A DNA stretch of 43,804 nt, taken from Candidatus Aenigmatarchaeota archaeon. GTDB lineage: Archaea > Aenigmatarchaeota > Aenigmatarchaeia > QMZS01. The notes beneath the pieces are model-generated. The model had not been told where the DNA came from, made no database searches, and worked only from the letters and a program-made list of their open reading frames with translations. How positions within the stretch are numbered: the stretch's first letter is position 1; each line of letters opens with the position of its first letter. Made by a program: the position numbers and the translations under genes. This document shows positions 8,961 through 43,707 of the stretch, piece after piece. The stretch is from contig JAUVLW010000007.1 of assembly GCA_030600555.1 (NCBI GenBank), positions 1 to 43,804 on the forward strand, read 5' to 3'.

Positions 8961-11321
8961 TTAATAATAACCTTTCAGGGTTTCATAGAATTCTTTATAA
9001 TCAGGAATGTCTCCTATGATTAATTCTGCGGAACTACTTCCTGTGGTATTTACAGTAATATTCCCATTTTTGAACATTTTATTTAACATTCCCTGAGAAA
9101 AATTTATGTGATCTATTTTATTGAAAATAATTGAAGTTTGTTTTTTATATAATATTCCTGAGTTTGCAACAACCCTGTAATTTTGAATTGAAAATGATTT
9201 AACTTTTACGCTCCAAATCACCATAGGAACTGTGATTGGAAGCAACAAAATCAAAGGGAATATAATTATACTAATTCCTATTAAACCCACCAAAGAATTT
9301 GCCAAATCCGGTTTTGAAATCCTGATTGTTTCCGGGGAATAACTGGAAAGATTTCGTTCCATTTCAGATAACTGCTTTGAATCAGGTCTCTTATAGAATA
9401 TTAAATCAATCAACTCATCCTTGTTATCAATGCCCAGGATATAATTAATTTTAAAATTGTTTGAAATAAGCATCTGACCCTTCTTCCCTTCCTGCACCAT
9501 ATGCTCCCCTGCAACATTAAATCTTACAGACCCATACCCTGAAAAAGGATATTTCACGGTGGTTATATCCTTTATATTATCATACAAAACATAATAAAAA
9601 TCTTTGAAGAATATCCCTCTTGTAAAATAAATATAATCTTTGAAAAAAGTTAGTTTTGAATTTTTATAATAAACTATTTTATAAATTACAATAATAACGC
9701 AAAGAACAGTTAATATAATTGGGATTATTGCGATAAATGGATTAACAACAAACGCAAAATAAGAAGAACCCAAAATAATTATTGCAAAAATCAAAGTGAG
9801 CAATAAGTTTGCTTTGAACAATTCGATTACTTTAAAACTGGAATCCATTTTGTAAATCTTCTCCTGAGCGCCTATCCCTGATTTTGCCAGAATTGACTGA
9901 TATATTCCTTCAGATTTCTTTATGTTTACAAATTTAATATCCTCTGATGAACCTATTGACCAGAAATGTATGCTGCAGGTGTTGAACCATTTGTCAACAA
10001 AATTTTCTTTGAATATAACCGACATAATTTTATCATTGGTAAACTCCTTATTTTTTGAAGAGATAAAATTATATTTTTCCTCAATACTTTTGGATTTAAC
10101 AAAATATTTTGTTGAATTTATTTTGATTGCTATCTGAATTAAAACAATAATCCATACAAACATCAAAGGGAATAAAATGAGACAAACTGGAAGGACAATT
10201 AACAGAGGAACAATCGACCTTTTAGTATTCATTTTATATTCTGCGGTAAAATCTGTGTCTCTTGGCAAAGTTTTTGATTGATAAACAGTTTGTTTTTTAG
10301 ATTCAGATAGGTTAGAAGTTTGTTTCTTTGTTTCAGCAACTCTTGCGGTTTGTTGTTTTCCGGTTCCAACCAGAGAATTTGTTTCGCTTATTAATTTATC
10401 GATATTTGATTCCATCTCTTTGCCATTAGCCATATTTTTGAAAAGAACCTCCTGCTTGCTTCCCTGACAGCTAATCTTCACATCATACAATCTAAATATT
10501 TTATCAATAATTGTTTGTGTAATCATCGAATCAGAAAGATTTTCTATTGGTATAAAAGAATAATTCTTTGAGAGAAAACCCTCCTGATAAGTTATGGTAT
10601 CTGAATAAATGCTGTAAACCCTTCTCTTTAAATCCAAAAACCTGAAAATCAAAACGCCAAATGCCAGCAAAACCAAAAAACTGGATAAATATAAAAATAA
10701 TTGATTCTCCAGAACAAAACTAAATATACCTAACTCAATATCGAAAAATAACCAGACTATTAAAAATAATACAGTGGCTAAATTTCTAAATACCTCAAAT
10801 AAAACTCCTATCGAACTTGGACGTTCCTTTTGAACCAATTTTGATTTTGATAATTTAAACCCATTATACTGCATCATCTTTTCAACATATTCATACATCT
10901 TATTTGGGTTATCAATGGATTTCATGAATATTTCTGAAACACCGCTCCCTGCTGATTCCACTCTTACATTACCAGTCTTTAAAAGTTTATTCTCAATGTA
11001 AGGCAACCTCATAGTTACGTGAGTTATATTCCTAATAATCAATTCAGTTTCATTATTGGAAAATATTCCTCCCGAATTATGGATAATTTTATCTTTAAGA
11101 AAAGTATAACTTTCTTTCTTGTACTGAACATTCAGCGAATAATAATTAAATAGTTCAATAAAGACAAAAACCGCAACGATATATAAAAGATATTCTTTCA
11201 AAACCAAACTTGCTATTGAATAAATTATTGCAAAAAGAATGAATAAACCAATAGAAATTTTAAAAAAACTGTAATTAACATAAGCCGTTTTGTTTGGTTT
11301 TAATTTATATTCATAAGACAT
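8961..11321 (-). CDS. large membrane protein with repeated bacterial-type PH (bPH2/DUF304) domains
   Basis: 786 aa; repeated TM pairs each followed by a 'tfxkdxixxxxGixxxxxxxixxxxI' block. Confidence 0.75.
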   Translation of the reverse strand: MSYEYKLKPNKTAYVNYSFFKISIGLFILFAIIYSIASLVLKEYLLYIVAVFVFIELFNYYSLNVQYKKESYTFLKDKIIHNSGGIFSNNETELIIRNITHVTMRLPYIENKLLKTGNVRVESAGSGVSEIFMKSIDNPNKMYEYVEKMMQYNGFKLSKSKLVQKERPSSIGVLFEVFRNLATVLFLIVWLFFDIELGIFSFVLENQLFLYLSSFLVLLAFGVLIFRFLDLKRRVYSIYSDTITYQEGFLSKNYSFIPIENLSDSMITQTIIDKIFRLYDVKISCQGSKQEVLFKNMANGKEMESNIDKLISETNSLVGTGKQQTARVAETKKQTSNLSESKKQTVYQSKTLPRDTDFTAEYKMNTKRSIVPLLIVLPVCLILFPLMFVWIIVLIQIAIKINSTKYFVKSKSIEEKYNFISSKNKEFTNDKIMSVIFKENFVDKWFNTCSIHFWSIGSSEDIKFVNIKKSEGIYQSILAKSGIGAQEKIYKMDSSFKVIELFKANLLLTLIFAIIILGSSYFAFVVNPFIAIIPIILTVLCVIIVIYKIVYYKNSKLTFFKDYIYFTRGIFFKDFYYVLYDNIKDITTVKYPFSGYGSVRFNVAGEHMVQEGKKGQMLISNNFKINYILGIDNKDELIDLIFYKRPDSKQLSEMERNLSSYSPETIRISKPDLANSLVGLIGISIIIFPLILLLPITVPMVIWSVKVKSFSIQNYRVVANSGILYKKQTSIIFNKIDHINFSQGMLNKMFKNGNITVNTTGSSSAELIIGDIPDYKEFYETLKGYY

Positions 11322-15957: not shown

Positions 15958-18900
15958 CTAAAAAGAACTCAAAGAAAACTGCTTTGGTTTTTTCCCAAAT
16001 ATATTGTCCAGCTGACCTTGGATAAGTTCTAATTGCTCTTTTGTGTAATCCGGTATGTTGTATTGCTCAGCAATCCTCTTGCTCGCTTCAAGATATTTTG
16101 ATATTGTTCCCTCGGACACAGTCAACACAAGTTTCCCTTTGCACTTCAGGCATTTCCCTGACAACGGAGGTCTCCTGTAAATTGTATTGCATCCAACGCA
16201 CCTAAATGTCTGCCTGAAAAAAGTTCTTAAATTACCCTTAATATCTTTCAGAAAATGACTTGAAAGAATCTTGTAAGCAACCAGTTTTTCATCAACGCAA
16301 TTTAGTTTTTCAGCCAACCCCAACTGCATCATCACCTTATCAATCATACTCTCAACAGTTTTGTAGGAAGTAAGATGAACCCCGGAATTAATATCTGTTG
16401 TTTCAGTTGTGTAGCCTAAATCAGAATACATATTTCCTTTATCCAACCTGTCAGCAACCCTTTCTATATTTATCTCAAAAGGGAAGGGGTTATCTTTTGT
16501 TTTTTCATAGAATTCTTTTGGGTACTCAAAAACAACATCCATATCATAAACCTCATCATCAACTTCGCCCAAATCCAGAAGTGTTGTTATTGTAAGAGGC
16601 GCATCAGAGATGCTTCCTCTCCTCATCGGAAGGTATTCTCTTGAAAAATTAAGGAGGCAGTCCATGAGAAGCATAATCCCATTTTCTTCTCCATCGCAGT
16701 CCCTCCTGGTGCAGGCAAACAAATAAGGATGAGCATAATGACATCTGTTTGAAGTAAATCCAATCAATCTGCACACAACCGGAGAAAGTATGTGAGGGGC
16801 TATATCCAGAAACAATTGCCCAACCAAATCCTCTCTCTTTTTTGCATTATAGAAATGTTTAACCCCATAAAAATGTTTAAGCTCATCATCAATAAATTTC
16901 GATACTCTAAGGAAATAATCCGCAGCGCTGTTCTCGCCGTAAGTTGAATATAAAAAATCCTGAGGGAAAAGTTCAACAATCTGATTTTCATTCTCAAGTG
17001 GATTCCCGTCCCGGTCTTTTTCATACCCAAGTTCTCTTAATTTTTCAACGCTCGTGGAAATTTCTCTTGGTATAAAATGAGTTAACGGAGCATTAACCAT
17101 ATCATATCTTATTGTCCCATCCCTAAAAACATAAAGGTCATATTTTGCTCTCAATATTCCTTTATCCACCGGTTCCGGAACTTTATGTTTTGAACTGATT
17201 CCCCTAACCCCTTTTATTAAATTCATCCTGTGTTCATTTAATTTCTCATATCCTTCATTAAGCAACCCAAGCACATTTATTTTCTTCTTCACGATTTTTG
17301 GATTCTCCAGATGCTTCCCGCATTTCATGCAATAAGGAACTATTGAGTTTCCGTGTTCAGGGCAGGTAAACTCGCTGATTTCTGCGGTAATATAAGAAAC
17401 TTCCATAACATTCCTCATTCTGCCGCCTTCCTGACCAACAGGGAATAATACCTGAGGGGAACCTTTCATTTTTCTTTCCTGTGATTTCTCCGGTCTTCCC
17501 ATTCTCGTGCCAATATATTTTGTTAGTTTTTCCCTGATGTCCAACTTTGAAAATTTATTTACTAATTCAAAACCTTCAAGTTTGCTTTCCTTTAATTTTT
17601 CCAAATCCATTCCTTCGAAAGTTTTCAATAAAGGTTCAAAGTCCTCAAGAACAATAAACTGTTTGTCTATTGAAAGGGAATGAGGGATGAATGCTTTCTC
17701 AAGCAGTTCTTTTTTTTCGCAATTCTTAAGAACCAAACTCCCGTCTTTCTTCTCCCCTGAATTCAAATATTCCGCCAACCCAGCAACTTCTTCTGAAGAA
17801 AAATTGTCATAGAAATGAAGATATTTTGGGTGCAATGGAATTATCTCCGCAAGTTTCAGGGCTTCTTCAGAATTTATATTTAATGGATTTTTTATCAGTT
17901 CTTCTGTTCTTTCCAATCCAATCAACTTTCCCGCCGCCTCCTTTTTCTCATCTAAATCAAATTTCCACCATTCTTCAACATAAGCGCTTCTGATTAATTT
18001 CTCCCCATTTTCATAAAAATCCCCAAAGGTAATTAAAATATCCCCCACAAACAGAATTTTGTCAACATCTTTGTTCAGTTCCTTTGCCTTTGACTGGGTT
18101 TCAACTCTCACAACATCCCCGTTCTTTAATTTTACAATTGGAGGCTCTATATTATCGCACACCGAAACAGTGCACCCCTTTCCAGGAAGCTCAATCTTCA
18201 TCTGTGAACCTATTGCGGGGAAAGAATCCAGAATAATTAAAGTTGCTGGATGAAAACCAAAACAACCCGACCCTGTGTTTCTTGACCTTCCATATCTCAA
18301 TCGAAATCCACCCCTCAAATAAGGAAGGGAAAAAACAGGTCTGCCCGCGGGAACCTCTTCTATGAATTTGTATTCTTTATCTCCGCTACTTCCTTTTGTT
18401 TCTCCTTTTTTTAATTTAAGAAACCCATCAAGCCAACTCCAGGTTTCTGTTAATTTAAATTCATCTCCATATTTTTTTAATTTCTTAAGAAGTTTTTTTG
18501 CTTTCAATGGGAGACCATCAAGATAAATCAAACACATTCCTCCCCTTATTCTTGTTGTTCCAACTCTCTCAAGATCTTTGTATTTTGAAACTTCTCTTTT
18601 CTCGGTTGGTTCTCCGGTAATGCAGATAGGAACATTTTTTACAAGATAACTGATTTCTTCTTCATTTGGTTTGTATTGTTTCCTTGTTACATAGGTAAGG
18701 TAATCAGTAACTTCAGTAAAATATCTTCCAATTTCATCATTTGTTGGAATATATCTGTTTAATCCAAGCTCCTTTCTTATGCAGTCTGCAATAAATAAAG
18801 TAAATACCTGGGCTGTTCCCCCCGCAGTTCTTATTGGTCCTGCGTAATAAACAGACACAAATTTATCCTTTGGGTCAATTGTCACGCTAACAATTCCTTC

Positions 18901-19278
18901 AATCGGAGCGCTGACAACCCCTTTTGTATTATAAGCGCATCCAAACCTAAGACCGCAAAGTATTGCTTCTTCCATAGTGTCAAACTTTGAAAACTTCTGC
19001 AGGGCAATGTCCTTTGCTATCCCTAAAGCAACTTCATCGCTCCCAACACTATACTGTTTCTCAAGTTCATCTATCCTTATAATAATCTCCTTCCTGAACT
19101 CATTTAGCTGAGGGTGAACTATCTCAAGAATATCCACACAACGGTTGTTCTTGTCCGCAGCCCTTTTTGACTCAACAAAAAGCTCATAATCTTTACCCGA
19201 TTCCTTGGCTTTTGTGGCCTTATTATAGCTATTATCAACCTCTGACTTAATTCTCTCAAAATATTCCTCGGGGTTCAT
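15958..19278 (-). CDS. polC: DNA polymerase D (PolD) large subunit DP2, no intein
   Basis: 1106 aa; signature regions MNPEEYFERIKSEVD, YYAGPIRTAGGTAQ, zinc-binding Cys clusters; C-terminal PIP-like KQFSLSSF. Confidence 0.97.
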   Translation of the reverse strand: MNPEEYFERIKSEVDNSYNKATKAKESGKDYELFVESKRAADKNNRCVDILEIVHPQLNEFRKEIIIRIDELEKQYSVGSDEVALGIAKDIALQKFSKFDTMEEAILCGLRFGCAYNTKGVVSAPIEGIVSVTIDPKDKFVSVYYAGPIRTAGGTAQVFTLFIADCIRKELGLNRYIPTNDEIGRYFTEVTDYLTYVTRKQYKPNEEEISYLVKNVPICITGEPTEKREVSKYKDLERVGTTRIRGGMCLIYLDGLPLKAKKLLKKLKKYGDEFKLTETWSWLDGFLKLKKGETKGSSGDKEYKFIEEVPAGRPVFSLPYLRGGFRLRYGRSRNTGSGCFGFHPATLIILDSFPAIGSQMKIELPGKGCTVSVCDNIEPPIVKLKNGDVVRVETQSKAKELNKDVDKILFVGDILITFGDFYENGEKLIRSAYVEEWWKFDLDEKKEAAGKLIGLERTEELIKNPLNINSEEALKLAEIIPLHPKYLHFYDNFSSEEVAGLAEYLNSGEKKDGSLVLKNCEKKELLEKAFIPHSLSIDKQFIVLEDFEPLLKTFEGMDLEKLKESKLEGFELVNKFSKLDIREKLTKYIGTRMGRPEKSQERKMKGSPQVLFPVGQEGGRMRNVMEVSYITAEISEFTCPEHGNSIVPYCMKCGKHLENPKIVKKKINVLGLLNEGYEKLNEHRMNLIKGVRGISSKHKVPEPVDKGILRAKYDLYVFRDGTIRYDMVNAPLTHFIPREISTSVEKLRELGYEKDRDGNPLENENQIVELFPQDFLYSTYGENSAADYFLRVSKFIDDELKHFYGVKHFYNAKKREDLVGQLFLDIAPHILSPVVCRLIGFTSNRCHYAHPYLFACTRRDCDGEENGIMLLMDCLLNFSREYLPMRRGSISDAPLTITTLLDLGEVDDEVYDMDVVFEYPKEFYEKTKDNPFPFEINIERVADRLDKGNMYSDLGYTTETTDINSGVHLTSYKTVESMIDKVMMQLGLAEKLNCVDEKLVAYKILSSHFLKDIKGNLRTFFRQTFRCVGCNTIYRRPPLSGKCLKCKGKLVLTVSEGTISKYLEASKRIAEQYNIPDYTKEQLELIQGQLDNIFGKKPKQFSLSSF

Positions 19279-20323: not shown

Positions 20324-20860
20324 TTATTCTTTTACTTCCTCAGTTTCTGGTTTTTTAGGACCTGTGTTATTAATGAACCACATCATTGCTCCAATTACTA
20401 TGAAGATTATTATCAAAGCAATTAAGTCCTGTGTAAGTCCAAAATAGAACCAGTTCATTCCACCTACAGCTCCGTTGATAATCATCCATGCAATTACTAC
20501 AAGACCTATTATTAATGCCCATGCGTGCCAGCCTTCAAATTTATGTAGCCATTCAGGTTTTATTATTGTGATTATTAGGATTAAACCCATTATCACGGTT
20601 AAGTACATTACTGTTGCTGCTGTGATTCCGCTTAAGAAAGCACCCATTGCTGGTCCAAATGCCATCACTATCAGGAAACCTGCCACAAGACCGATTATTC
20701 CTGAAACACCTCTCGCTGTCTTTTCATCACTATTTCCAAATATCTTTGCTCTTAATAACAAACCGAAAAATATTGCGAAACAGAATATCCATGGGAACGC
20801 GAATTCGTATAATATTCTGCATACGCTCGGACTTGCTATAAATCCACAATCATATGCCAT
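20324..20860 (-). CDS. tandem-triplicated ~5-TM membrane protein, copy 1
   Basis: 178 aa; MAYDCGFIASPSVCRILYEFAFPW... shared by all three copies. Confidence 0.9.
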   Translation of the reverse strand: MAYDCGFIASPSVCRILYEFAFPWIFCFAIFFGLLLRAKIFGNSDEKTARGVSGIIGLVAGFLIVMAFGPAMGAFLSGITAATVMYLTVIMGLILIITIIKPEWLHKFEGWHAWALIIGLVVIAWMIINGAVGGMNWFYFGLTQDLIALIIIFIVIGAMMWFINNTGPKKPETEEVKE

Positions 20861-20939
20861 AATTTTAATAGTTTTAGTATATATAGGTTTAACAGCCTAT
20901 CGGCAATTATAAAGATTCTATAAAATAAAATCAAAAATG

Positions 20940-21455
20940 TTAACCTTCTTTTTCTCCAGTATTGTTAATGAACCACATCATCGCTCCAATTACTATGAAG
21001 ATTATTATCAAAGCAATTAAGTCCTGAGTAATTCCAAAGTAGAACCAGTTCATTCCTCCTACAACACCATTGATAATCATCCATGCAATTACTACAAGAC
21101 CTATTATTAATGCCCATGCATGCCACCCTTTAAATTCCTGTATCCAATCAGGCTTCACTATTGTAATCACTAAGATTAAACCCATTATCACGGTTAAGTA
21201 CATTACTGTTGCTGCTGTGATTCCGCTTAAAAAAGCGCCCATTGCTGGTCCAAATGCCATCACTATCAGGAAACCTGCCACAAGACCGATTATTCCTGAA
21301 ACACCTCTTGCTGTTTTGTCATCACTTTGTCCGAATATTTTTGCTCTTAATAACAAACCGAAAAATATTGCGAAACAGAATATCCATGGGAATGCGAATT
21401 CGTATAATATTCTGCATACGCTCGGACTTGCTATAAATCCACAATCATATGCCAT
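20940..21455 (-). CDS. tandem-triplicated ~5-TM membrane protein, copy 2
   Basis: 171 aa, near-identical to copy 1. Confidence 0.9.
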   Translation of the reverse strand: MAYDCGFIASPSVCRILYEFAFPWIFCFAIFFGLLLRAKIFGQSDDKTARGVSGIIGLVAGFLIVMAFGPAMGAFLSGITAATVMYLTVIMGLILVITIVKPDWIQEFKGWHAWALIIGLVVIAWMIINGVVGGMNWFYFGITQDLIALIIIFIVIGAMMWFINNTGEKEG

Positions 21456-21550
21456 AAATTAAATAGTTTTAATATTAATAATATCCGCAATCCCTTTATT
21501 AACCCCAGCAATATCACTTTACTAAAAAATTATAATAAAAAAATAAATTA

Positions 21551-22108
21551 TTACTTTTTCTCGGTGGAATTGATGAACCACATTATTGCTCCAATTACTA
21601 TGAAGATTATTATCAAAGCAATTAAGTCCTGTGTAAGTCCAAAATAGAACCAGTTTATTCCTCCAACATACCCGTTGATAATCATCCAGGCTAGTATTAC
21701 AAGACCTATTATTAATGCCCATGCATGCCCTCCTTTAAATCCAGTATCTTCTTTGCCCGGTTCGCCTTTTCCAGTACCAATGATCCAATCAGGTTTTACT
21801 ATTGTGATTATTAAGATTAAACCCATTATCACGGTTAAGTACATTACTGTTGTTGCTGTGATTCCTGATATGAAAGTTCCCATTGCTGGTCCAAAGGACA
21901 TAACTATTAAAAATCCTGCTACAAGCCCTATTATTCCTGCAACTCCTCTCGCTGTCTTTGTTGCTTTTCCATCATCGTCCACTCCGAATATTTTTGCTCT
22001 TAATAACAAACCGAAAAATATTGCGAAACAAAATATCCATGGGAATGCGAATTCGTATAATATTCTGCATACGCTCGGACTTGCTATAAATCCACAATCA
22101 TATGCCAT
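21551..22108 (-). CDS. tandem-triplicated ~5-TM membrane protein, copy 3
   Basis: 185 aa, same N- and C-termini, expanded loops. Confidence 0.9.
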   Translation of the reverse strand: MAYDCGFIASPSVCRILYEFAFPWIFCFAIFFGLLLRAKIFGVDDDGKATKTARGVAGIIGLVAGFLIVMSFGPAMGTFISGITATTVMYLTVIMGLILIITIVKPDWIIGTGKGEPGKEDTGFKGGHAWALIIGLVILAWMIINGYVGGINWFYFGLTQDLIALIIIFIVIGAIMWFINSTEKK

Positions 22109-22172
22109 AACTAAATATACTGAGATATATTAATAGAAAGAATTGACTAATATTTTAAAAGATTATACTTTT

Positions 22173-23609
22173 ATGAAAGTTAATAAAGTCTCTGAATTTG
22201 AATACTCAATTTCAAAAGAAGAAAGAGAAGGAATGAGAGTAGATGCGAAAATAATCGCAACAGAAAAAGTCAGGAATCAGATTGAGGATGAAGCAATTAA
22301 ACAGCTCACAAATGTTGCCTGTCTCCCTGGAATTGTCGCGCCTGTGTGCGGGATGCCTGATATTCACTGGGGCTATGGATTGCCAATGGGCGCTGTGGGG
22401 GCATTTGATTCAGAAGAAGGGATTATTTCCTGCGGATGCACAGGGTTTGACATAAACTGCGGAATCAGGGTAATTAACACTAATTTAACTTACAATGAAG
22501 TAAGACCAAAATTAAGAGAATTAATCGACCTTTTATTTAAAAATGTTCCAACCGGAGTTGGGTCAAAAGGAAAATTAAGAATTTCCAATGATGAACTTGA
22601 AGAGGTTTTAAACAACGGGGCAAAATGGGCTCTTGAAAACAATTATGCTGAAAAAGAAGATTTGGAGCACATGGAAGAATATGGGTGCATCAAAGGGGCA
22701 AACACAGATAAAATCTCCGAACTGGCAAAGAAAAGAGGACTTCCTCAATTAGGAACTTTAGGTTCAGGAAATCACTTCCTTGAAATCCAGAAAGTCGATG
22801 ATATTTTTGATTCAAAAACTGCCGAGGTTTTTGGGATAACTAAAAAAGATCAGGTGGTGATAATGCTTCACTGCGGTTCAAGAGGTCTTGGACACCAGAT
22901 TGCAACAGATTATTTAAAAATTCATGAAGCCGCATCAAAAAAATATAACATTAAACTTCCTGATTCTCAACTGGTATGCGCCCCGACAAATTCTCAGGAA
23001 GGACAGGATTATTTTGAGGCAATGAAAGGAGCAGTCAACTATGCTTTCTGCAACAGGACTGTGATGACCGACTGGGTAAAAGAAACCTTTGAAAGAGTTT
23101 TCGGGAGAACAAGAGATGAACTTGATATGAAATTAATGTATGATGTGTGCCACAATATCTGCAAACTTGAAGAACATGAAGTCAACGGGGAGAAAAGAAA
23201 ATTATATGTTCATAGGAAAGGAGCAACAAGAAGTCTTCCTGCGGGACACCGATTGCTTCCAAGCACTTATTTAAAAGTTGGTCAGCCAGTATTGATTGCG
23301 GGTTCAATGGGAACTGCAAGCTATATTTTAGTTGGAGGAGAAAATGCAAAAGATACTTTTTACTCAAGTTGCCACGGAGCTGGGAGAGTGATGAGTCGCG
23401 GAAAAGCAATAAGAAATTTCAGAGGAAACACTGTGAAAGAAGATTTACTAAAAGAAGGTATTATTGCAAAAGCAACATCCCCAAAAGTTCTTGCGGAAGA
23501 ATCCCCGAACGCTTACAAAGATATTGATGAAGTGATAAAATCCGTGGATATGGCAGGAATTTCAAAGAAAGTTGTAAGGGTTGTTCCTATGGGAGTTGTT
23601 AAGGGGTAG
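22173..23609 (+). CDS. rtcB: RtcB tRNA/RNA ligase
   Basis: MPDIHWGYGLPMGAVGAFD, GFDINCGIRV, GSRGLGHQ, NSQEGQDY motifs; likely ATG start 22173. Confidence 0.96.
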   Translation: MKVNKVSEFEYSISKEEREGMRVDAKIIATEKVRNQIEDEAIKQLTNVACLPGIVAPVCGMPDIHWGYGLPMGAVGAFDSEEGIISCGCTGFDINCGIRVINTNLTYNEVRPKLRELIDLLFKNVPTGVGSKGKLRISNDELEEVLNNGAKWALENNYAEKEDLEHMEEYGCIKGANTDKISELAKKRGLPQLGTLGSGNHFLEIQKVDDIFDSKTAEVFGITKKDQVVIMLHCGSRGLGHQIATDYLKIHEAASKKYNIKLPDSQLVCAPTNSQEGQDYFEAMKGAVNYAFCNRTVMTDWVKETFERVFGRTRDELDMKLMYDVCHNICKLEEHEVNGEKRKLYVHRKGATRSLPAGHRLLPSTYLKVGQPVLIAGSMGTASYILVGGENAKDTFYSSCHGAGRVMSRGKAIRNFRGNTVKEDLLKEGIIAKATSPKVLAEESPNAYKDIDEVIKSVDMAGISKKVVRVVPMGVVKG

Positions 23610-29360: not shown

Positions 29361-29643
29361 GCAGGAGTAGCCAAGTCTGGTCAGATAAAAGTCAGTTCGA
29401 CTTTATTACAGAAAAAGGCGCTGGACTCAAGTGAACCCTTTAAAAAAGGTTGTTTTATCGAAAAGATAAAACATATGTTTTTCGAAGAAAAACAAGGTCT
29501 AAACCCCAAAACAACAATAAGGATTTTGAGTTATCCAGTCTCTTAGTGAGTTCGACGGTTCGAATAAGGTTTTCTTTCTCGAAAGAAACACCTTAAGCAA
29601 AAGAAAGGAAAATTATATCTTAACGAAACTCCGTCCTCCTGCA
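29361..29643 (+). tRNA. tRNA-Leu(CAA) with three predicted introns (~29383-29413; 29432-29532; ~29565-29629)
   Basis: Acceptor GCAGGAG/CTCCTGC plus A73; D-arm GCCAAGTCTGGTC...AAAGGC; anticodon arm CTGGA-CTCAAG|intron|A-TCCAG; class II variable arm CTC/GAG; T-arm GACGG-TTCGAA|intron|T-CCGTC. Confidence 0.9.
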
Positions 29644-29699: not shown

Positions 29700-30224
29700 A
29701 TGAAGATAGAACTGGATATTGTTCCTATGGGGAATATTGATGAAGACACAATTGAGGTGTTAAAACAGAAACTAAAAGAAAGGAACTTTCTTGTGAGAGT
29801 TTACGCCAAAATCGAACTTCCAAAAACCTCGCTAAATGTGTACAGAAAACAATATAACTCTGATGTGATTACAGACACACTCAGGAACCTAAAAGGAACA
29901 GTTATTGCGATTACAGATGCGGATTTATACACAGATAAATTAAGTTATACTTTTTCAACAGTTGAATATGACGGGCCTGCTTTAATTTCAACCTACAGGT
30001 TGAACCCCGAGTATTATCAGGAAACACCAAATTTTAATTTATTGATTGAGCGTCTGGTAAAAGAAATAATTTATTCCGTAGGGAGGATAAAAGGATTGGA
30101 TGCTTGCCAGCACCCAAGATGCTTAATGCACAATATCACTTGTGTGAAGGATACTGATTTTAAAGTTATGGATTTTTGCAAAGAGTGCAAAATTAACAAC
30201 ACTCTTAAAGGTGTGGACTTATGA
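29700..30224 (+). CDS. archaemetzincin homolog lacking catalytic residues
   Basis: Archaemetzincin-like YRKQYNS, ERLVKE, CxxxxCLM...FCKEC; HExxHxxGxxHC replaced by YSVGRIKGLDAC. Confidence 0.85.
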   Translation: MKIELDIVPMGNIDEDTIEVLKQKLKERNFLVRVYAKIELPKTSLNVYRKQYNSDVITDTLRNLKGTVIAITDADLYTDKLSYTFSTVEYDGPALISTYRLNPEYYQETPNFNLLIERLVKEIIYSVGRIKGLDACQHPRCLMHNITCVKDTDFKVMDFCKECKINNTLKGVDL

Positions 30225-31093
30225 AAAAAAAGACGGAAACAAAGAAGGCAACCAGCAAAAGGAAAACTAAAATAATTGAAGAAAAGGAATTCCTGGAAGA
30301 CACTAAAACAAAAAAGAAAACAACCAAAAAAACTGCGGTTAAAGCTAAAAAAGAATCCATCGACAAAGTAAAAAAAGTTTCCAAAGAAAAAACAAAGAAA
30401 CCTAAAACCGACAAAGTGAAAAAGAAGTCCAAAAAAACAGAAGAAATTGAAGAGATTAAACCTTTGAGTTGCGAAGAAATTTTCCCGGAAAATGAAGAAG
30501 TTCAGGAAACTCCTTCAGAAGAATCTGAGGCTAACAAATTTAAAAGAGAACCAAAGAAAAAATATAAAGGAACTCTTCTTGAAAATAAAGTTTACATATT
30601 TAACAAAACCGATGGAGAAGAAGTTTATGATTACGGGTGTTTTGGAAAAATGAAAGATGACAAAAATGAACTCTCCCTTGAAGAAGCCCTTGTGCTTGCA
30701 AAAAGAAATAAACTGAAAATCTATGAAGGTAAAAAAGAATTAAATGTTGAGGAATTTTATGAATATGCCTGCTTGCAGGACAAAGAATTCCCGTGGAAAT
30801 TTACAGTATATGAGGAACTAAGAGGTCGTGGTCTTCTGGTAAGAACCGGGTTCAAATTCGGCACCCACTTCAGGGTTTACGCAAGAGGTGTAAAATTAAA
30901 GAGAGGTCCAAAATCAGTGAAAGAACACACAAGATGGATTGTTCATGCTATTCCTGAGAATTACACTTGTTCCTTCCCTGAACTATCCAGAGCTGTTAGA
31001 CTGGCTCACAATATTAGAGCAAAAATGCTTTGGGCGGTTGTTGATGATGAAGGGGATGTAACTTACTACGAAATTATTCGGAAAACTCCTTAA
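30221..31093 (+). CDS. endA: tRNA-intron endonuclease with Lys-rich N-terminal extension
   Basis: YEELRGRGLLVRTGFKFGTHFRVY, EHTRWIVHAIPE, SRAVRLAHNIRAKMLWAVVDDEGDVTYYEI. Confidence 0.95.
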   Translation: MKKKTETKKATSKRKTKIIEEKEFLEDTKTKKKTTKKTAVKAKKESIDKVKKVSKEKTKKPKTDKVKKKSKKTEEIEEIKPLSCEEIFPENEEVQETPSEESEANKFKREPKKKYKGTLLENKVYIFNKTDGEEVYDYGCFGKMKDDKNELSLEEALVLAKRNKLKIYEGKKELNVEEFYEYACLQDKEFPWKFTVYEELRGRGLLVRTGFKFGTHFRVYARGVKLKRGPKSVKEHTRWIVHAIPENYTCSFPELSRAVRLAHNIRAKMLWAVVDDEGDVTYYEIIRKTP

Positions 31094-41734: not shown

Positions 41735-42652
41735 AATATTTAATAAATTAAACTATTTTTGGAATTCAACAACATATTATAATCTTAAAGAATTCAATTA
41801 ATCATCTATATATTTATCACTTTCAATAATAGCATTTTCTCTTATTAATCATCTAAGATAATAGACTCACTAAGTATGGTCTTTTCTCTCATTTCACCAC
41901 AAGAGAATAGTATTTATAATTTTATATTTATGGAAGATAAAGAAAGTAAGGGGTTATATGAAGAGTTCAGAATTCGGGATGGAAAATCCTATAATTGCAT
42001 CTTATGCAGAAATCCTGCAGAATATACGAGGTATGGATATACCTGGTGCGAAGAACATAAAAAAAATTTAGATAAAGAACCTGAAGATTTGGAAGAAATA
42101 ATAATTGAAAAATATGAAATTACTGGTGATTAACAATACCTTAAACCTAACAATATTATGCTCCTGAAAATAGGAAATAAAGATGTAAACTGCAAAATAA
42201 AATATAAAAAAACCCGCCACGCTTATCTTAAATTAAACCCAAATTATTGTCTTGAGATTACATTGCCTGATAACCGTCAGGTATCCATAGAAACTCTCTT
42301 AAAAGAAAAGCAAAACTGGCTGAAGAGAAAGGTTGGAGAACTTGAAAAATCAGTGAAGCTTTTCGAGGGGGACTCAGTTTATTACAAAGGAGAAAAATAT
42401 AGTGTGAATGTGATAAGGGATAAAAATTCAGGGATAAAAATATTTGATAATTCAATTGAAATATGCAAATTCGGGAAAAGAAAAAGTGAAAATATATTGC
42501 TTGAATTTCTCGCAGATGAAACCCTTGAATATGTTTCAGTCAAAGCAGAAGAATTCTCCAATATTTTCGGATTATATCCAAAATCTATTTCAATAAAAAA
42601 CCTCAGAAGTTTTGGGCACTGCAAAAGAGATGGAAAGATTTTCTTTAATTCC
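41638..42652. repeat. inverted repeat, left arm (1015 nt)
   Basis: Pairs with 42790-43804 at constant coordinate sum 85442, a few percent mismatches. Confidence 0.95.
41930..42133 (+). CDS. small zinc-finger-like protein (IR left copy)
   Basis: MEDKESKG...CILCRNPAEYTRYGYTWCEEHKKN; CxxC...CxxH; TATA-like tract upstream. Confidence 0.65.
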   Translation: MEDKESKGLYEEFRIRDGKSYNCILCRNPAEYTRYGYTWCEEHKKNLDKEPEDLEEIIIEKYEITGD

Positions 42653-43060
42653 AAATTAATCTGTCTCCCAGTCCCGCTTATTGATTATGTTGTGGCTCAT
42701 GAATTAGTTCACCTAAAACATTTCAATCATTCAAGAGATTTTAAACTGGGAGTTGAAAAAATACTTCCTAATTATCGGGAACTTGAGAGGGAATTAAAGA
42801 AAATCTTTCCATCTCTTTTGCAGTGCCCAAAACTTCTCAGATTTTTTATTGAAACTGATTTTGGATATAATCCGAAAATATTGGAGAATTCTTCTGCTTT
42901 GACTGAAACATATTCAAGGGTTTCATCACCGAGAAATTCAAGCAATATATTTTCACTTTTTCTCTTCCCGAATTTGTATATTTCAATTGAATTATCAAAT
43001 ATTTTTATCCCTGAATTTTTATCCCTCATCACATTCACACTATATTTTTCTCCTTTGTAA
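42158..43060 (+). CDS. YgjP/WLM-like (DUF45) metallopeptidase; C-terminal ~80 aa are read-through into the opposite arm
   Basis: VVAHELVHLKHFNHSRDFKLGVEKILPNYRELERELKKI; sequence beyond ~42800 is antisense of its own N-terminal half. Confidence 0.8.
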   Translation: MLLKIGNKDVNCKIKYKKTRHAYLKLNPNYCLEITLPDNRQVSIETLLKEKQNWLKRKVGELEKSVKLFEGDSVYYKGEKYSVNVIRDKNSGIKIFDNSIEICKFGKRKSENILLEFLADETLEYVSVKAEEFSNIFGLYPKSISIKNLRSFGHCKRDGKIFFNSKLICLPVPLIDYVVAHELVHLKHFNHSRDFKLGVEKILPNYRELERELKKIFPSLLQCPKLLRFFIETDFGYNPKILENSSALTETYSRVSSPRNSSNIFSLFLFPNLYISIELSNIFIPEFLSLITFTLYFSPL

Positions 43061-43284
43061 TAAACAGAATCCCCCTCAAAAAGCTTCACTGATTTTTCAA
43101 GTTCTCCAACCTTTCTCTTCAGCCAGTTTTGCTTTTCTTTTAAGAGAGTTTCTATGGATACCTGACGATTATCAGGCAATGTAATCTCAAGGCAATAATT
43201 TGGGTTTAATTTAAGATAAGCATGGCGGGTTTTTTTATATTTTATTTTGCAGTTTACATCTTTATTTCCTATTTTCAGGAGCAT
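42772..43284 (-). pseudogene. truncated second copy of YgjP-like gene lacking HExxH
   Basis: Same N-terminal ~165 aa as 42158 ORF, ends at IR junction before active site. Confidence 0.85.
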
Positions 43285-43308
43285 AATATTGTTAATTTCA
43301 AGGTATTG

Positions 43309-43512
43309 TTAATCAGCAGTAATTTCATATTTTTCAATTATCATTTCTTCTAAATCTTCAGGTTCTTTATCTAAATTATTTTTATGGTCTTCGCACCAGG
43401 TAAATCCATATTTCATATATTCTGCAGGATTTCTGCATAAGATGCAATTATAGGATTTTCCATCCCGAATTCTGAACTCTTCATATAACCCCTTACTTTC
43501 TTCATCTTCCAT
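43309..43512 (-). CDS. small zinc-finger-like protein (IR right copy)
   Basis: MEDEESKG...CILCRNPAEYMKYGFTWCEDHKNN. Confidence 0.65.
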   Translation of the reverse strand: MEDEESKGLYEEFRIRDGKSYNCILCRNPAEYMKYGFTWCEDHKNNLDKEPEDLEEMIIEKYEITAD

Positions 43513-43707
43513 AAATATAAAATTATAAATACTATTCTCTTGTGGTGAAATGAGAGAAAAGACCATACTTAGTGAGTCTATTATCTTGGATGATTAATAA
43601 GAGAAAATGCTATTATTGAAAGTGATAAATATATAGATGATTAATTGAATTCTTTAAGATTATAATATCTTGTTGAATTCCAAAAATTGTTTAATTTATT
43701 AAATATT

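Follow-up and report, generated by a model that had tools for sequence, protein, structure and literature searches.

The DNA analysed here, a stretch of 43,804 nt referred to as the window, comes from an Aenigmatarchaeota MAG (the host, G000) of 815 kb in 34 contigs that is 82% complete. The HisRS of the host, which shares 93% identity with that of two Aenigmatarchaeota MAGs, places it in this phylum. At positions 29361-29643 the window carries a class II tRNA-Leu(CAA) gene composed of four exons and three introns (Table 1). The joined exons gave a sequence of 86 nt (GCAGGAGTAGCCAAGTCTGGTCAAAGGCGCTGGACTCAAGATCCAGTCTCTTAGTGAGTTCGACGGTTCGAATCCGTCCTCCTGCA), which was called tRNA-Leu(CAA) by ARAGORN in either D-loop register; CCA is not encoded at the 3' end of exon 4. 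No ARAGORN call was obtained for the unspliced gene or the raw window, the raw window had no Rfam match at the gathering score, and relaxed E-values returned only chance Rfam matches at the locus.

Table 1. Coordinates, in the window, of the parts of the tRNA-Leu(CAA) gene and of the genes for the two candidate splicing enzymes.
Feature	Position	Strand	Description
Exon 1	29361..29382	+	Acceptor 5' strand GCAGGAG, D-stem 5' strand, start of D loop; same in G001, G004 and G006
Intron 1, D loop, 31 nt	29383..29413 (33-nt alternative 29382-29414)	+	BHB central helix; missing in the G003 and G002 orthologues
Exon 2	29414..29431	+	D-stem 3' strand, anticodon-stem 5' strand, anticodon CAA (29428-29430), G37
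Intron 2, position 37/38, 101 nt	29432..29532	+	BHB 4/4; family A element (AACCCTTT...GGTCTAAACCCCAAA); precisely missing in G006
Double-hairpin insertion within intron 2, 48 nt	29446..29493	+	AAGG repeats at flanks; missing from the G001 intron
Exon 3	29533..29564	+	A38, anticodon-stem 3' strand, long variable arm, T-stem 5' strand, T-loop TTCGAA
Intron 3, T loop position 59/60, 65 nt	29565..29629	+	BHB 4/4; family B element (TAAGG...CCTTAAGCAAAAGAAAGG); precisely missing in G007
Exon 4	29630..29643	+	T60, T-stem 3' strand, acceptor 3' strand CTCCTGC, A73
RtcB, tRNA-splicing ligase	22143..23609	+	PF01139, E 8e-173
EndA, tRNA-splicing endonuclease	30221..31093	+	One N domain (PF02778), one catalytic domain (PF01974), basic N-terminal tail

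An intron-tolerant tRNA assembler was written for this work, which scores stems, conserved loop bases and the BHB motif and permits introns in the D, anticodon and T loops only. When run on both strands of the whole window, it ranked the tRNA-Leu(CAA) gene at the top with a score of 32.6 compared to 24.0 for the next place; the maxima on dinucleotide-preserving shuffles of the window were 26.2 (3 shuffles) and 27.6 (20 shuffles). A search of the same assembly (82% complete) with the spliced sequence returned the gene itself and two other leucine tRNAs at 75-78%, and no second or intact Leu(CAA) copy was found. The preliminary description of this DNA had proposed a tRNA-Leu(CAA) gene with three introns and a class II product of approximately 86 nt. 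Its coordinates and stems were recovered, the length and identity of the product agreed with it, the independent assembler placed the gene first, and the intron hairpins that it quoted are present. A second intact Leu(CAA) gene, which it had named as an observation that would speak against it, did not turn up in the own-assembly search. A three-intron tRNA-Leu(CAA) gene with two introns at non-canonical positions is supported as the best reading of the locus.

The splice junctions were examined for a BHB motif, defined as a 4-bp central helix between the exon 5' of the cut and the 3' end of the intron, with 3-nt bulges. In the 37/38 intron, the central helix CTCA/TGAG was fully paired (4/4) and lay directly inside the CTGGA/TCCAG anticodon stem, and in the 59/60 intron the central helix TTCG/CGAA was likewise fully paired (4/4), with the GACGG/CCGTC T stem outside. 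Two registers are possible for the D-loop intron: TCTG pairs with CAGA at 4/4 in the 33-nt register, and CTGG pairs with ACAG at 3/4 in the 31-nt register. Since the G009 and G010 orthologues have CTGG/CCAG at 4/4, the 31-nt register is favoured, which corresponds to the boundaries first given. The intron 1 junctions, which the preliminary description had called ambiguous, are uncertain by one register, 31 versus 33 nt. The D-loop motif is of the relaxed type because its outer helix is broken by mismatched bases. When the D, anticodon and T arms were folded with their introns without constraints, the expected central helix formed in each. These results show at the sequence level that BHB-compatible folds, the lack of which had also been named as grounds for doubt, are present at all three junctions.

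The census of the host genome placed this gene in a context that the preliminary description could not have seen. Eight tRNA matches were above the Rfam cut-off in the host, all with introns. With the assembler, 28 tRNA genes were rebuilt and all 28 were interrupted, by 54 introns altogether; seven of them carried three introns (Leu CAA, Glu CTC, Arg TCT, His, Lys TTT, Gln TTG and Ser TGA). The T loop was interrupted in 27 genes, the D loop in 15 and the anticodon loop in 12. The tRNA-Leu(CAA) gene is therefore ordinary in its own genome. On the unspliced loci of the 28 genes, ARAGORN found only one or two; on the spliced forms, it called all 28 with the assembled anticodon, an agreement that is supportive and no independent proof, since 27 of 195 shuffled candidates were also accepted. 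The census is partial, having been built from searches and stretches of sequence and extended by weaker matches and an intron motif, and the number of introns per gene is raised because part of the census was found through that motif. The lowest-scoring genes (27.2-28) lie near the best shuffled score (27.6).

Three intron loci (L068, L072 and L100) failed automatic assembly. On visual inspection, a Tyr gene with two introns was recognised at L072 and a one-intron initiator Met gene at L100; these two genes were left out of the census. L068 contains at approximately 1501-1595 (G000 C22:3703-3797) a partial Val-like tRNA near a full Val(CAC) gene, which resembles a broken duplicate. A tRNA-Leu with the anticodon AAG (A34), unusual for archaea, was observed in the host (L048 373-562; G000 C12:12472-12661, minus strand) and in G005 (L063, C26). 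Two genomes of the same class (G025 and G043, family f13) gave only 2 and 4 tRNA matches at 86-87% completeness, which may mean that tRNA genes are broken up still further there than in the host.

The orthologous tRNA-Leu(CAA) gene was found near EndA in several related genomes. All three introns occur at the same sites in G001. The 37/38 intron is missing in G006, the T-loop intron in G007, and the D-loop intron in G003 and G002, so that a natural empty site exists for each intron within the genus. The mature tRNA sequence is the same in the host, G001, G004 and G006, and the intron sequences differ. The 59/60 site contains a family B element (TAAGG...CCTTAAGCAAAAGAAAGG) in the host and G001 and a family A element (GCAACCC...GGTCTGCACCCCAAA) in G004 and G006, indicating turnover at one fixed site. 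Among seven distinct spliced orthologue sequences, all 161 stem cells (23 pairs) were paired, compensatory changes were seen in 9 of the 23 stem pairs, some of them with the two sides separated by an intron, and none of 500 shuffles matched this pairing. The comparison with orthologous genes suggested in the preliminary description bore it out: introns are individually missing in relatives, and the kept and covarying stem pairs show selection on the spliced tRNA, which argues against decay.

Introns 2 and 3 of tRNA-Leu(CAA) carry dispersed hairpin elements, which recur in different tRNAs, at different positions and, now and then, in intergenic DNA. Over 48 nt, intron 3 was 98% identical to the intron at 37/38 of the host's own Glu(CTC) gene, and intron 2 was 89% identical over 46 nt to the D-loop intron of Ser(TGA) in G008. 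Within the host, the Glu(CTC) 59/60 and Arg(TCT) 37/38 introns have 77 nt in common at 97%, and within G008 the Gly(TCC) 59/60 and Ser(TGA) D-loop introns have 65 nt in common at 100%. The mark by which transposable tRNA introns of the Thermoproteales type are recognised, introns that are nearly the same although their tRNAs are unrelated and their positions differ, is therefore found here. The matches mostly end before the 3' splice end, where the bases pair with the local exon, indicating that the shared unit is an internal cassette and not the whole intron. When up to two mismatches were allowed, the motif GGTCTGCACCCCAAA gave 20 matches in the host and 98 in nine genomes, compared to one for the reversed control; the family A element of intron 2 matched with two mismatches. 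The 20 host matches were mostly within tRNA genes and a few were intergenic. The match at C25:19790 lies in coding DNA and looks like chance.

An intergenic family A copy was found on C3 of the host at approximately 18810-18905 (C3:18887; L092 ~1425-1525); over a length of 96 nt it is 96% identical to the intron at 59/60 of Val(TAC). The syntenic intergenic spot measured 37 nt in G004 compared to 116 nt in G000, and the element was missing in G006 too. Insertion was also visible inside introns. Intron 2 of tRNA-Leu(CAA) equals an alignable 52-nt G001 intron plus a double hairpin of 48 nt between AAGG repeats; the GTTTTATC...GATAAAAC hairpin is part of this insertion, and related double hairpins occur in the Glu(CTC), Arg(TCT) and G008 introns. 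The 37/38 intron of Gly(TCC) was 305 nt in G005 (L022 1233-1683, C16) compared to 63 nt in G008 (L057 418-653, C62), and the extra DNA includes copies of mobile hairpin elements, i.e. they are nested. The closing helix of the family B/C hairpins covaries to some extent, with two-sided changes in 4 of 11 pairs.

No reverse transcriptase that could serve as a mobiliser was found in 11 genomes. A Y1 transposase of the IS200/IS605 type was considered and rejected: it was present in 5 of the 11 genomes, G000 not being one of them, and the flanks of two copies had no family A motif. In G006 (L122, C6, ~9370-9445), a family A element lies not inside a tRNA-Leu(TAA)-like gene but starts right at its 3' end. 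An A-rich tail was observed after the intron hairpins (window 29565-29612, L055), which reads AAAGAAA, or AAAGAGAAA where the stem is TTTCTCTTT. It repeats the 3' strand of its own hairpin and could pair with the 5' strand; a triple-helix or switch role would be speculation.

The window also encodes the two enzymes that would be needed for splicing (Table 1). The Tyr, His and Lys of EndA align with those of solved EndAs. One EndA match each was found in 10 of 11 genomes of the family, one of them 96% complete, at E up to 10, a search that a very divergent beta subunit could escape. The Crenarchaea-specific loop (CSL), which is linked to relaxed substrates, is missing from this EndA: at the FGK...LSL site the protein has 11 residues fewer than the Crenarchaea-type chain 2cv8 and aligns with 1a79 almost without gaps. 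Between the catalytic Tyr and His lies a conserved basic stretch, KLKRGP, six residues longer than in M. jannaschii; its length is matched by the EndA of N. equitans, which is listed as broad (PMC6379350). We hypothesize that this stretch replaces the CSL/ASL. An AlphaFold model of EndA (four sequences) had a mean pLDDT of 48.7, too low for loop placement. Efficient removal of relaxed introns is ascribed to (alpha-beta)2 and epsilon2 EndAs only, with the single-subunit type held to strict BHBs (PMC6379350), which weighs against removal of the D-loop intron by this EndA. Elsewhere in the window, a tandem array of three paralogues encoding small membrane proteins (MAYDCGFIASPSVCRILYEFAFPW...) was noted on the minus strand at 20324-22108. 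Near the contig end, at 41876-43566, there is an inverted duplicate of a gene pair (~85 aa; zinc-peptidase-like ORFs of 300 and 170 aa), which is possibly an assembly feature.

We conclude that the locus is very probably a working tRNA-Leu(CAA) gene whose three-intron transcript would be spliced by EndA and RtcB, and that it is one case of a genome-wide invasion by hairpin elements that appear to move. We infer from the sequences that each intron would fold against the exon just upstream to form a BHB or relaxed BHB, that EndA would cut both intron ends in the cell, and that RtcB would join the exons into the 86-nt mature tRNA. The short BHB introns of the D, anticodon and T loops would have been colonised in this Aenigmatarchaeota lineage by small hairpin elements, which appear to pass from one tRNA gene or intron position to another and, on occasion, into intergenic DNA.

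It is unlikely that these are instead old, vertically inherited host introns, perhaps with a guide-RNA or regulatory role, whose likeness to each other arose by gene conversion and not from mobile elements. No transposase is linked to the elements, and the conservation of intron 1 in G000, G001, G004 and G006 indicates that at least this intron was inherited. However, near-identical stretches lie in unrelated isoacceptors and at different positions, the 59/60 site holds family B in G000/G001 but family A in G004/G006, and an intergenic copy is present. We regard as very improbable a decaying tRNA pseudogene with inserted repeats, the Leu(CAA) function being supplied by another gene. The insert load is unusually large and the repeats are related to intergenic elements, as such a gene might have it, but the assembly holds no other Leu(CAA) copy, all stem pairs are kept with compensatory changes across introns, the exons are the same in G001, G004 and G006 despite differing introns, and 28 of the 28 assembled tRNA genes of the genome are in the same state.

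An assembly or binning artefact, in which tRNA pieces were brought together in a chimeric contig, might be suspected of a source MAG that is 82% complete and in 34 contigs. It is scarcely credible, however, because G001, an independent MAG, has this gene too, interrupted at all three of these sites, and because its position close to EndA recurs in several related genomes. Self-splicing introns of the group I type are known from tRNA genes of other archaea and of bacteria, and archaea do have group I introns (PMC6125680), but we give next to no credence to them here: the introns are only 31-101 nt, no Rfam family, and with it no group I core, was matched at the gathering score, and BHBs are found at all junctions.

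The working, element-invaded tRNA-Leu(CAA) gene favoured here has precedents in part. Three introns per tRNA and the transposition of tRNA introns are both established for the Thermoproteales. Three-intron pre-tRNAs are known from Pyrobaculum calidifontis tRNA-Glu(UUC) and P. islandicum tRNA-Pro(UGG) (PMC4390854), and P. calidifontis has 71 introns in 46 tRNA genes, with a maximum of three per gene (PMC8450103). There, too, up to three BHB introns occur in one tRNA at canonical and non-canonical sites; in contrast, the present host belongs to the DPANN phylum Aenigmatarchaeota, its T loop is interrupted in 27 of 28 genes, and its EndA is probably of the single-subunit type rather than (alpha-beta)2. 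Transposition of Thermoproteales tRNA introns was established by work of 2010, as far as it is described in PMC4033280 and PMC4090602. Judging from these descriptions, very similar introns likewise occur in unrelated tRNAs and positions, a likeness of pattern; in the Aenigmatarchaeota introns examined here, the shared unit is an internal hairpin element that also occurs in intergenic DNA and in nested form.

Near-universal interruption is common to this host and to Atabeyarchaeia and Freyarchaeia, in which, according to the part of PMC11291895 consulted, 92-95% of the tRNA genes are interrupted and more than half of them have several introns, often non-canonical; these are Asgard archaea, unlike the Aenigmatarchaeota host. 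ARMAN-1/2 (Micrarchaeota) are likewise ultrasmall archaea with several and non-canonical tRNA introns (PMC12397907, PMC4033280), but their epsilon2 EndA is a three-unit fusion, whereas the host EndA has one N domain and one catalytic domain. The double-hairpin elements and short mobile DNA of organelles, as outlined in the consulted parts of PMC5910586 and PMC4478555, are also tiny repeated mobile DNA; for the double hairpins the likeness is one of shape only, and the elements described here reside in tRNA introns of an archaeon. A literature search for tRNA introns together with Aenigmarchaeota gave nothing on topic by title or opening of the abstract, in a collection that mostly leaves out subscription journals. 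What is unusual here is the completeness of the invasion, the preference for the T loop, the presence of elements beyond the tRNA genes and an EndA that is probably of the single-subunit type.

A broader proposal is put forward more tentatively, as one with slightly less than an even chance of being right. Tiny hairpin elements, mainly housed in Aenigmatarchaeota tRNA introns, could move at the DNA level from one tRNA gene or loop to another and into intergenic DNA and nest within each other, splicing by a single-subunit EndA without CSL/ASL could make them harmless, and the rule that relaxed introns require an (alpha-beta)2 or epsilon2 enzyme would then fail.

These findings indicate that standard tRNA finders overlook nearly all tRNA genes in such genomes, and an EndA that is probably single-subunit calls into question the link that has been stated between the type of this enzyme and the diversity of introns. 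The mechanism by which archaeal tRNA introns spread has been described as unknown (PMC4090602). Because nine related genomes have the same tRNA site empty, or filled with one or another element, and a few intergenic copies exist, intron gain is directly traceable in this genus. Randau and Soll, as cited in the consulted part of PMC3293823, proposed that tRNA introns protect against integrating elements, and the host, with 27 of its 28 assembled genes interrupted in the T loop, offers a test bed for this idea.
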